Below are positions 15,294-18,249 of a stretch of 64,000 nt of DNA, one piece after another. The notes under the pieces are model-generated. The model was given only the letters and a program-made list of their open reading frames with translations. It made no database searches and had not been told where the DNA came from. The translations under genes were made by a program, and so were the position numbers. The DNA lies in the NCBI GenBank assembly GCA_000961725.1, contig LADS01000059.1:62001-126000 (forward strand). Direction: 5' to 3'. The stretch is from Desulfobulbaceae bacterium BRH_c16a (GTDB taxonomy: Bacteria; Desulfobacterota; Desulfobulbia; Desulfobulbales; Desulfocapsaceae). The stretch's first letter is position 1. Each line of letters opens with the position of its first letter.

Positions 15294-16721
15294 ATGCTGG
15301 AACTCATTTTTGTACTGCCGATATTGACCGGCCTGACGGCATTGTTTCTGCCCTCGAACATGGGACGGGGCATGCTGCTTATCGCCGCACTGCTCCATCT
15401 GCAGCTGAGCATGATGGCCTGGTTCGGCAAGCTATCCGTTTTCGCCGACCGGTTTTTTGCCCTGGAACCGGCCGGTATGCTGGTCCTGCTTGTAACTTCC
15501 TTTGTCTTTTTGTGTATTGCCTGCTACGCCATCTGCTACATGCAGGATACCGAAGTCAGCAGCGAACCGGTCTTTATCGGTTGTCTGCTGCTCTTTCTCG
15601 GCACCATGAGCATGGTGACCCTGGCCGATCATCCGATAGTGCTGTGGATCGCGATCGAGGCAACGACCCTGGTGAGCGCGCCGTTGATCTTTATCCATCG
15701 TTCCAAGGCGGCACTGGAAGCGACCTGGAAATATGTCATCATCTGTTCGGTGGGGATTGCTTTAGCCCTGCTCGGGTGTTTTTTTATTACCCTGTCGATC
15801 GATATTGCCGACGTCGACGTTGCTTTGACTTTTACCTCCCTCAATACGGTTGCCACCAACCTTGATCCTCTCTGGCTGAAGGTCGGCTTCATCTTCGTCG
15901 TCATCGGCTTCGGCACCAAGATGGGTCTGGCGCCGATGCACACCTGGCTTCCCGATGCCCACAGTCAGGCGCCGAGCCCGGCGTCGGCGCTGTTGTCGGG
16001 GGCCCTGCTCAACTGCGCCTTTCTTGGCATCTATAAAGTCCATACCCTCATGTATCTCGCAGGTCTTGGTGAGTTTTCCAGTAATCTTCTGATCGGTTTC
16101 GGTCTTACTTCCATGTTTGTTGCCGGAGTCTTTATTATCCGGCAGCCCGATTATAAAAGAATGCTGGCGTATTCGAGCATCGAGAACATGGGCATCATCG
16201 CCTTTGGCGTGGGAATCGGCGGGATCGCTCTCTATGGCGCGATCCTCCATATGATCCACCATTCGCTGATAAAATCTTCTCTCTTTCTCTCGGCCGGCAA
16301 TATTTTTATCGGTTTCCAGACCAAGCTTGCCGAAAATGTCGGCAATATGGCCAAATTTCTGCCGAAGACCTTTCTGTCGTTTTTTGCGGGCTTCGTCGGC
16401 ATTTCAGGTTTGCCGCCGTTCGGGATTTTCATCAGCGAGCTGTTTATTTTGCTCGGAGCCATTCAGATGGGACATCCGGTGTACGCTGCGCTGTTTATTT
16501 TCGCGCTGATCCTGGTGGTTGCCGGCGCGGCGCAGATTGTCACCGACATGTCGTTTTCGGCAAATGTCGGCCAGGTCATAGGCATCGAGCGTTACCTGCG
16601 CGTTGTCCCGCCCTATGTGCTGCTTGCCGCTTCGATCTCTTTGTGCATCTATATGCCCGAGGGGCTTTACACAACCATCCTCGATACCATCACAATAATC
16701 GGAGGAACAATTCATGGATAG
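15294..16721 (+). CDS. hyfF: Hydrogenase-4 component F-like antiporter subunit
   Basis: A 475-aa membrane protein with about 13-14 helices, the second antiporter-like subunit. Pumping residues are kept: Glu in LWIAIEATTLVSAP, Lys in GFGTKMGLAPMHTWLPDAHS, and the later motifs YKRMLAYSSIENMG and HSLIKSSLFLSAG. HyfF is absent from the smaller formate hydrogenlyase-1, so this cluster is of the hydrogenase-4 layout with two pump modules. Its stop overlaps the start of the large-subunit gene by 8 bp. Confidence 0.93.
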   Translation: MLELIFVLPILTGLTALFLPSNMGRGMLLIAALLHLQLSMMAWFGKLSVFADRFFALEPAGMLVLLVTSFVFLCIACYAICYMQDTEVSSEPVFIGCLLLFLGTMSMVTLADHPIVLWIAIEATTLVSAPLIFIHRSKAALEATWKYVIICSVGIALALLGCFFITLSIDIADVDVALTFTSLNTVATNLDPLWLKVGFIFVVIGFGTKMGLAPMHTWLPDAHSQAPSPASALLSGALLNCAFLGIYKVHTLMYLAGLGEFSSNLLIGFGLTSMFVAGVFIIRQPDYKRMLAYSSIENMGIIAFGVGIGGIALYGAILHMIHHSLIKSSLFLSAGNIFIGFQTKLAENVGNMAKFLPKTFLSFFAGFVGISGLPPFGIFISELFILLGAIQMGHPVYAALFIFALILVVAGAAQIVTDMSFSANVGQVIGIERYLRVVPPYVLLAASISLCIYMPEGLYTTILDTITIIGGTIHG

Positions 16722-18249
16722 CCACCTGCAGATAAAAAAAGACAGCCTCCTGCAGATTCAAAACGGCGAAACCGTGCCGCGGTCGGTGATTCCCTGCCTT
16801 ACTTTCGACCGTTTTGCCGAATTGCTTGACGCTTTTGTTAAAAATAACGGCTTCATCGTTCAGCTGTTCGCCTTTGTCGAAGACGGAAAAAATAAACTGC
16901 TTGCGGTTGTTCGTAATGAAAATCTCTATGTGCTTGCCACCGAGGTGGGGGAGAGTTTCCCCTCGCTTACTGCCTCGACCAGCCCGCGATTTCATATGTT
17001 TGAACGGGAGATCGCCGAACAGTACGGCATTACGCCAAAGGATCATCCCTGGCTGAAAATGGTCCGCTATCATGCCAACTATCGCCAGGCGGCCGATGTC
17101 TTCGGCAATGACTACAGCGAAGATATTCCGGGGAACTACCCCTATTTTCAGGTCGAGGGCGAGGCCATACACGAAGTGGCGGTTGGGCCGGTTCATGCCG
17201 GTATTATCGAACCGGGCCATTTCCGCTTTCAGTGTGCCGGCGAAGAGGTGTTTTCCCTGGAAATTCAGCTGGGTTATCAGCACCGGGGAGTCGAAAGAAT
17301 GCTGACGGAAGTGCCGTTTAAACGCCTGACGGTGCTGTGCGAAAATATTGCCGGCGATACCAGCATCGGCCATAACCTCTGCTGCTGTCAGGCTCTTGAA
17401 GCTCTTGGCGGTCTCTCGGTCGATCCCGGCGCCCGGACTGTCCGATCGATTGCGCTCGAACTTGAACGTCTGGCCAATCATATCGGCGATCTCGGCGCCT
17501 TAAGCGGCGATGTCGCTTTTAATCCTCCGGCTGCCTATTTCGGCCGCCTGCGCGGCGAGTTTCTCAATCTGCTGCAGGTGCTGTGCGGCAACAGATTCGG
17601 CAAGAGTCTGGTGCTGCCCGGAGGGATTTCTCAGATAATGACCGGGGAACAGGCAAAGATCATCGGCGACAAGCTGAAAGAACTGGAACCGGAAATCACC
17701 AATGTCTGCGATCTGCTGTTCACTGCCCACACAGTGCAGGCTCGATTTGAGAATACCGGCACCGTTTCGAAACAAATGGCGGCAGACTTAGGTCTGGTCG
17801 GCTACTGCGGCCGTGCCTCGGGGCTGGAGTATGATGTCCGTGTCGCCTTTCCGAATGAAGCGTACAGTTCCCTGCACGCCAACAGAAACGAGATGGTGGC
17901 CGGCGACGTGTATAGCCGGGCGACGGTCCGCCGTGAGGAAATCATGCATTCCATGCATCTGATCAGGACTCTTTTGAACAGAAAGGGAGAACCCTGCGCA
18001 AAAATGACCATGCATGAATTCACCCTGGCACCGGAGAGTTTTGTGGTAACCCTTAACGAAGGCTGGCGGGGCGAGGTCTCTCACTGCCTGCTGACCGACA
18101 AGGACGGCAGGATAGAAAGGTACAAGATCAAAGACCCCTCGTTTCATAACTGGACGGGACTGGCGATGTCGCTCAGGAATCAGGAAATCTCCGATTTCCC
18201 GCTCTGCAATAAAAGCTTCAACCTGTCCTATTGCGGCTTTGATCTTTAA
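16714..18249 (+). CDS. NuoC-NuoD-fused [NiFe]-hydrogenase-like large subunit lacking Ni ligands
   Basis: A 511-aa homolog of HyfG/HycE: a NuoC-like part (about 25-130) joined to a NuoD/large-subunit part. The alignment is clear (LGYQHRGVERM matches LGFAHRGLEKL of HycE), but the L1 motif CGxC is replaced by AGDT, with Ala213 and Thr216 in place of both cysteines. At the C-terminus the DPCxxC motif reads N-L-S-Y-C-G (503-508). The protein ends three residues later, without the extension that a maturation protease would remove. It cannot hold a normal NiFe centre. This is the hallmark of Ehr-type complexes. Its redox partner and reaction are unknown. Confidence 0.92.
   Translation: MDSHLQIKKDSLLQIQNGETVPRSVIPCLTFDRFAELLDAFVKNNGFIVQLFAFVEDGKNKLLAVVRNENLYVLATEVGESFPSLTASTSPRFHMFEREIAEQYGITPKDHPWLKMVRYHANYRQAADVFGNDYSEDIPGNYPYFQVEGEAIHEVAVGPVHAGIIEPGHFRFQCAGEEVFSLEIQLGYQHRGVERMLTEVPFKRLTVLCENIAGDTSIGHNLCCCQALEALGGLSVDPGARTVRSIALELERLANHIGDLGALSGDVAFNPPAAYFGRLRGEFLNLLQVLCGNRFGKSLVLPGGISQIMTGEQAKIIGDKLKELEPEITNVCDLLFTAHTVQARFENTGTVSKQMAADLGLVGYCGRASGLEYDVRVAFPNEAYSSLHANRNEMVAGDVYSRATVRREEIMHSMHLIRTLLNRKGEPCAKMTMHEFTLAPESFVVTLNEGWRGEVSHCLLTDKDGRIERYKIKDPSFHNWTGLAMSLRNQEISDFPLCNKSFNLSYCGFDL

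Follow-up and report, generated by a model that had tools for sequence, protein, structure and literature searches.

The observation of Ehr (energy-converting or Ech hydrogenase-related), a complex with a group 4-like hydrogenase large subunit that lacks nickel ligands, is reportedly to be traced to a 2005 Geobacter paper by Coppi. Here, we analyzed a 64,000-nucleotide stretch of Desulfobulbaceae bacterium BRH_c16a (the window; contig LADS01000059.1, positions 62,001 to 126,000 of the forward strand), which carries a compact six-gene module of this type on the plus strand at 11691-19020, comprising HyfB-, HyfC-, HyfE-, HyfF-, and HyfG-like subunits and a small subunit that joins a ferredoxin domain to a NuoB-like domain. 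HydDB lists Ehr among the hydrogenase homologues that do not metabolize H2 (PMC5037454), and Ehr complexes without Ni and Fe ligands have been described in Margulisbacteria (PMC6349859), the Candidate Phyla Radiation (PMC7304191), comammox Nitrospira (PMC10284858), and Nitrospirales (PMC12342949); in the last of these, a 2025 study, roughly one in two of the Nitrospirales genomes under comparison encoded it. The excerpted texts of these four papers show no function for Ehr, and redox-coupled ion transport is "suspected" in one of them (PMC6349859). The subunits of Geobacter sulfurreducens Ehr reached a higher abundance on formate than under hydrogen (PMC7894505), and according to a 2026 paper, Ehr had already lost its function in Geobacter KN400 and could drift freely (PMC13194489). 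Our comparison, made with E. coli proteins, GTDB records, plasmids, and other genomes, supports the assignment of the window module to the Ehr-type complexes, a known but unexplained kind, and this complex is probably an ion pump driven by a reaction other than hydrogen making.

The large-subunit gene (16714-18249, plus strand; EhrL/HyfG-like) encodes 511 residues without an internal stop, at the coordinates and in the frame given by the original prediction. Alignment to E. coli HycE and HyfG bore out its claims about the metal site: the first motif (L1) reads AGDT, with HycE C241 and C244 replaced by A213 and T216, and the second, DPCxxC, is lost, with C531 and C534 replaced by S505 and G508 in the C-terminal sequence N499-K-S-F-N-L-S-Y-C-G-F-D-L511. 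The flanks, said to align to HycE without gaps, do so around the first motif and over 440-506; the phmmer alignment contains gaps elsewhere, including a single-residue gap approximately 15 residues before the first motif. As also claimed, no cleavable tail is present, and the protein stops at the column of HycE Arg-537, after which HycE is cleaved by its protease (PMC7654741).

To place these losses in a wider set, 79 Ehr rows were assembled from the fetched loci as BLAST hits of the window protein covering at least 60% of it, after duplicate loci, shorter hits (including hydrogenase L099), and the duplicates L053 and L055 were dropped; the set favors relatives of the window and should not be read as a census. 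HycE, HyfG, L100, and L098 served as four non-Ehr control rows. Groups I, II, and III (43, 28, and 8 rows) were cut by identity to the window protein (56% and 40%), not by tree, and the group I row L030 ends before the C-terminus, hence the C-terminal counts out of 78. No ligand cysteine occurs in the four columns in 77 of the 79 distinct rows, among them L030 without its two C-terminal ligand columns, and exactly one is retained in the other two; the same losses extend over relatives from 86% to about 30% identity. This recurrence across the window and other genomes excludes a sequencing error. Both CxxC motifs of group 4 [NiFe] hydrogenases are thus gone, and so is the C-terminal peptide removed by the protease, with no residue past the Arg-537 column in any of the 79 rows. 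Absence of the tail does not by itself identify Ehr, because control L100, with all four cysteines present, ends at the same column, and this peptide is not universal in group 4.

No second intact large subunit exists in the operon: the source genome (6.5 Mb, 96.6% complete, 6% contamination) has three PF00346 genes, namely this large subunit and two complex I NuoD. It also carries other PF00374 ([NiFe] hydrogenase family) genes and two HypD, so that nickel-enzyme machinery is present in the cell. The loss of all four ligands supports the view that the complex is unable to handle H2 in the usual way. Filing the protein as Ehr-like likewise fits the evidence, as the ligands are lost and the cluster combines a small subunit with antiporter-like, NuoH-like, and HyfE-like membrane subunits.

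The old metal site has been replaced by a different, nearly invariant site. G214 is found in 79/79 and D215 in 78/79 Ehr rows; N499, K500, S501, Y506, G508, and D510 are invariant in the 78 rows extending to the C-terminus, with L511 in 77 of them. HycE, HyfG, and L100 have other residues in place of D215, N499, K500, G508, and L511, whereas G214, S501, Y506, and D510 are common to Ehr, HycE, and HyfG. The Ehr signature accordingly consists of a G-D first motif followed by T or S, a C-terminal NKSxNxSYxGxDL, and an HLELTM loop in HyfC; in the excerpts of the open-licence literature on Ehr, this conserved signature was not met.

The large subunit is, moreover, under strong purifying selection in the clade studied. 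The ratio of nonsynonymous to synonymous substitution rates (dN/dS; Nei-Gojobori, with some dS values high) was 0.046-0.222 in 12/12 informative pairs, computed on stop-to-stop frames that may include some bases 5′ of the start codon; two further pairs were identical and uninformative. These values, together with the conserved new site, oppose decay or drift in this clade. The suggestion made for Geobacter Ehr (PMC13194489), that such a protein is a decaying, nonfunctional hydrogenase, could draw on the loss of all NiFe ligands and on a stop codon inside the copy of the group I relative G041; against the low dN/dS, a new site conserved across 79 rows, and a module that is complete in every group I locus long enough to hold it, it is exceedingly improbable here, and we hold it to be refuted for this clade. 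The literature cited, as excerpted, gives no reaction for Ehr, and the selection observed here contradicts the nonfunctional view, at least in this clade.

Around the altered site, the hydrogenase proton donor and most canopy residues are retained. E166, corresponding to the proton donor HycE E193, and the canopy residue H256 (HycE H284) are kept in 79/79 rows, and E409 (HycE E437) and R452 (HycE R478) in 78/78. The HycE D529 column is Asn in 74/78 rows and the S283 column is Asn in 76/79. The roles of HycE E193, H284, E437, R478, and D529 are those given in PMC9474812, where D529 is described as strictly conserved and mutation at this position in complex I as impairing quinone reduction.

These columns bear on a doubtful but serious alternative, namely that Ehr is a quinone oxidoreductase, a complex I-like enzyme without the NADH module that passes electrons from ferredoxin (or formate) to a quinone in the chamber. 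The occurrence of Ehr in Nitrospirales (PMC12342949) and the quinone proposed for a putative formate dehydrogenase-Ehr (PMC6349859) are in its favor, as is the same gene set on plasmids of soil Pseudomonadota (Rhizobium, Burkholderia), for which quinone would be a natural common acceptor. However, Ile165 and Gly214 stand where complex I has its quinone-binding His and Tyr (Nqo4 H38 and Y87), the D529 column has turned to Asn as described above, and a full quinone pathway was not identified in the Margulisbacteria genomes with Ehr, according to the excerpted account (PMC6349859). The large subunit passes the broad Pfam model PF00346 but scores 143.8 bits on the curated NuoD model TIGR01962, short of the 459.35 that it requires. 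H190 was considered as the quinone His and dropped; it lies in the HycE H217 column, and the quinone His column is 165.

A sulfane sulfur (polysulfide) reductase resembling archaeal MBS is a considerably weaker candidate, which we regard as very unlikely. MBS, too, is a relative of group 4 that lacks nickel and takes its electrons from ferredoxin (PMC7684303), and the close hosts are, by name, sulfur-cycle Desulfobulbales (Desulfopila, Desulfoprunum, Desulfobulbus, Desulfofustis, and Desulfocapsa). The hallmarks of MBS are two retained cysteines out of four and a lost Glu, whereas the window protein has none of the cysteines and keeps Glu166; across the family, 77/79 rows are free of ligand cysteines, the Glu is present in 79/79, and the four N2 cysteines are present in 65/65 group I and II rows, against a three-cysteine proximal cluster in MBS. 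In addition, the wider family resides on plasmids of soil Pseudomonadota.

The small subunit (18277-19020, plus strand) fuses a HycF-like ferredoxin domain to a NuoB/HycG-like N2 domain with C134, C137, C201, and C231. The four N2 cysteines occur in 41/41 group I and 24/24 group II small subunits, with the hydrogenase-like spacing CxxC as opposed to the CC of the NuoB copies in the source genome; these counts omit L093, L094, L095, and L101, loci holding two modules. In their ferredoxin domains, all 65 of these rows also have one full four-cysteine set. The eighth ferredoxin cysteine, belonging to the second cluster, is present in 23/24 group II rows and in 0/41 of group I, including the window protein, so that the window subgroup has probably lost one ferredoxin cluster. 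A separate observation concerns L103:11296-12168 on the Allomeiothermus silvanus plasmid pMESIL01, a small subunit in which T, D, E, and S stand in place of the N2 cysteines; its Ehr-like module keeps one ferredoxin-type cysteine set and the HyfC loop, and its large subunit has GE, not GD.

In the membrane arm, the HyfC/NuoH-like anchor (13668-14639, plus strand; NADHdh) carries the third marker of Ehr. Its loop between transmembrane helices 5 and 6 follows D-[DN]-P-x-x-H-L-E-L-T-M-[ILV]-H-E in 49/49 Ehr-module rows and 0/4 others, is exactly THLELTMIHE in 45 of the 49, as in the window, and exceeds the corresponding loop of the three group 4 hydrogenase controls by three residues. In HyfC/NuoH this is one of the loops joining the redox and membrane arms (PMC9474812, PMC7684303). 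The remaining membrane subunits, all on the plus strand, are HyfB-like and antiporter-type with an extra C-terminal part (11691-13652; Proton_antipo_M), HyfE-like (14636-15289; NF008556, 80 bits against a cut-off of 136), and HyfF-like and antiporter-type (15294-16721; Proton_antipo_M). The top NCBIfam model of the HyfB-like protein is hydrogenase 4 subunit B (564 bits, with 667 required), the HyfF-like protein matches hydrogenase 4 subunit F models, and the NCBIfam matches of all module subunits lie under their curated cut-offs. The original prediction that both antiporter-type subunits keep their Glu and Lys pumping residues held for both columns of HyfB and for Glu, Lys, and Glu in HyfF; one Lys column of HyfF is Asn, as it is in E. 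coli HyfF. Taking these HyfB and HyfF columns to be the ones that pump is our assumption, under which the complex would be expected to move ions.

In a tree of GTDB records, plasmids, and E. coli and other genomes, 78 Ehr rows formed one clade (support 100/97) apart from NuoD, HycE, HyfG, L099, and L100, and the window, together with relatives of its genus, fell within a 42-row group I clade (97/94). The deep order is unsure because several branches are long and the root was placed at the midpoint. The nearest outsider to the Ehr clade is L098. Its region 6555-8235 (genome G160) encodes another nickel-less large subunit, whose first motif reads T-G-T-S and whose second pair of ligand columns holds S and E; the HyfC loop variant there is HFELAMIDE. 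The AlphaFold model of the window large subunit reached a mean predicted local distance difference test (pLDDT) score of 89 and a predicted template modelling score of 0.91, being weak at residues 1-6, 131-170, and 511. Foldseek returned HycE (7z0s_E) as the top match, with a template modelling score of 0.85 by query length, followed by complex I, and no PDB chain surpassed HycE by sequence or profile search.

We lean, by a modest margin over even, toward a six-subunit Ehr complex in which a ferredoxin-fed, proton-coupled reaction not involving H2 at the old [NiFe] site drives HyfB and HyfF. In the direction that we infer, a soluble low-potential donor, most likely ferredoxin, would deliver electrons to the small subunit at its ferredoxin domain, from which they would cross one [4Fe-4S] cluster to N2. 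They would then meet a substrate, not H2 and probably not quinone, within the chamber at the old [NiFe] site, and E166, the kept hydrogenase proton donor, would supply a proton. The substrate might be held by D215, T216, N499, K500, N503, and S505, which are conserved in Ehr and unlike HycE, beside the shared Y506. The HyfC loop would transmit the reaction to the putative ion pumps, HyfB and HyfF. The first residues to change are D215, N499, K500, E166, and those of the HyfC loop, and the question of function thereby becomes directly testable.

Several results weigh against this scheme. The Allomeiothermus relative provides the best evidence against a general redox role: with its four N2 cysteines lost, the N2 step would not be needed there, if the gene is active. 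In group III, 7/8 small subunits lack the ferredoxin-domain cysteines, the exception being the Allomeiothermus one. The AlphaFold model is a single chain, with mean pLDDT of 52 at 161-170, the loop of E166, and 74 at 501-510, so the pocket rests on the HycE alignment. Finally, no gene for a partner enzyme is constant beside the Ehr module, and the electron donor is therefore a guess.

The first of these results also lends some plausibility to an ion transporter or antiporter in which the large subunit performs no chemistry and its arm serves as a gate or scaffold, as do the Mrp antiporters, which have the membrane arm in common with these complexes but possess no peripheral arm (PMC7684303). 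Retention of the N2 cysteines in 65/65 group I and II rows, and of the proton-donor Glu and the canopy, makes this quite unlikely. The absence of a constant partner bears on a further proposal, in which a formate dehydrogenase docks on the ferredoxin domain and the module forms the ion-pumping arm of a formate oxidation chain. This is unlikely, although the increase of G. sulfurreducens Ehr subunits on formate relative to hydrogen (PMC7894505) and the formate dehydrogenase-Ehr proposed for Margulisbacteria (PMC6349859) are consistent with it: no formate dehydrogenase was recognized, mostly by eye, beside the window module or in the neighbors common to at least 3 of 50 loci. More generally, no dehydrogenase was seen among those shared neighbor clusters, most neighbors being judged by eye.

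The neighborhood analysis clustered open reading frames around these 50 loci (the window and 49 fetched loci, three of them non-Ehr). The commonest neighbors were kinase and response-regulator genes, in 17 loci. Upstream of the window module lie a sensor histidine kinase (7064-8677, plus strand), whose homologues, 68-79% alike, precede the module in L120 and L126 and which is likely a regulator outside the complex, and an NtrC-type sigma-54 response regulator (8674-10029, plus strand; Response_reg, Sigma54_activat, HTH_8), with homologues 5′ of the module in L006, L007, L008, L020, L021, and L029. A ThiF-family gene follows 3′ of the module on the opposite strand. Directly 5′ of the module is a conserved protein without a Pfam or NCBIfam match, U338 (10601-11617, plus strand), which stands beside the module in the window and in 10 of 25 named loci and was found in 18 of 57 relatives. 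U338 evolves fast, adjoining Ehr in many Desulfobulbales and lying away from it elsewhere; it was dropped as proof of function, since 8 of 11 stretches around extra copies showed no Ehr gene within reach. A candidate sigma-54 promoter 5′ of U338 (10223-10238, two mismatches) was likewise set aside without a claim, as the window holds 35 such sites against 33.7 expected, and a simpler sigma-54 pattern found nothing in four of the five relatives examined.

Near the module, a protein with HTH_17 and PTS_EIIA_2 domains occurred in 7 of the 50 loci (Pfam on four) and a SulP permease in 3 (Pfam on two). The HTH_17 and PTS_EIIA_2 regulator lies beside or between Ehr modules at L082:3072-3830, L084:15391-16191, L095:8139-8888, and L094:9030-9749, and HPr genes occur near Ehr-type modules on Burkholderia and Paraburkholderia plasmids. 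L093, L094, and L095 each place one group II and one group III Ehr module adjacently in one region. The modules of L082-L085 have a second HyfB beside the small subunit, where the window module has one HyfB; that all group II modules share it was ruled out by a recount, which left only L082-L085.

Of the 97 genomes searched, namely the source and those around it, 41 have a relative of the window subtype at 62% identity or more, two of them by partial genes. Across the phylum, 108 of 395 genomes had a match at E 1e-30; hydrogenases that still have metal ligands are among these matches. Two cultivable hosts, Desulfofustis glycolicus and Desulfoprunum benzoelyticum, also have the complex. The same gene types are carried on plasmids of Rhizobium, Burkholderia, Variovorax, Rhodococcus, and Allomeiothermus.

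The survey also encountered group 4 hydrogenase large subunits of another kind in L099 (reverse strand) and L136-L140, from the same-phylum genomes G107, G144, G179, G251, G273, and G105. All six keep DPCFSC and the C-terminal tail, and their first metal motif contains in-frame TGA codons, at both cysteine positions in five (R-I-U-G-I-U-G) and as U-G-I-C in the sixth; the genes terminate with TAA or TAG. A tRNA-Sec above the Rfam cut-off was found in five of the six genomes and not in G144, which is 82% complete. In 6/6, a stem-loop resembling a selenocysteine insertion sequence, CACAGTA-CGTGT-TACTGTG, starts 18 bases past the first TGA. The 75-base stretch containing it was no stabler than simple shuffles (z from -0.9 to 0.2), and an Rfam search of L099 gave no match. 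A double-selenocysteine NiFe site, if that is what the codons encode, would be very unusual, and none was named in the literature titles among the matches listed. The source genome, which carries a tRNA-Sec above the cut-off, has a hydrogenase large-subunit frame at G000:C13:129886-132833 with one in-frame TGA in its C-terminal part, adjoining HypD, which is possibly a NiFeSe enzyme.

Among known systems, the window module most resembles Ehr of Geobacter sulfurreducens (GSU0739-0745), Nitrospira, and Margulisbacteria, which, in the available descriptions, likewise combine a ligand-free group 4-like large subunit with a small subunit and NuoL-like and HyfE-like proteins. The Geobacter set has seven genes against six in the window; the L082-L085 modules with their second HyfB fit seven by number only. 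Within the family, the eighth ferredoxin cysteine separates group II, which has it in 23/24 rows, from the window subgroup. We presume that the genes Rv0082-Rv0087 of Mycobacterium tuberculosis can be equated with subunits of the window module. The resemblance is by names only, these being two oxidoreductases, hycD, hycP, hycQ, and hycE in the excerpted source (PMC6901956). E. coli hydrogenase-3 and -4 (HycE, HyfG) offer the closest solved fold and sequence, and their proton-donor Glu and most canopy residues are kept in Ehr; compared with HycE, Ehr lacks the four metal ligands and the 32-residue tail, has three more residues in the HyfC loop, and carries Asn for Asp529. Pyrococcus MBS (Mbx) is nickel-less and ferredoxin-fed and has antiporter-like subunits (PMC7684303), but it keeps two of the four cysteines, has a three-cysteine proximal cluster, and lacks the Glu (PMC7684303), and Ehr departs from it in all three respects. 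With NuoD and NuoB of complex I, Ehr shares the fold, the N2 domain, and a metal-free large subunit, whereas the quinone His and Tyr are absent. Tentatively, and at somewhat less than even confidence, Ehr might represent a fourth kind of chamber in the complex I superfamily, marked by the joint occurrence of G-D-[TS], the NKSxNxSYxGxDL C-terminus, and HyfC HLELTM, which would stand beside those for NiFe proton reduction, sulfane sulfur reduction, and quinone reduction and would carry out the proton-coupled redox conversion of a small polar substrate shared by soil bacteria and sulfate reducers.

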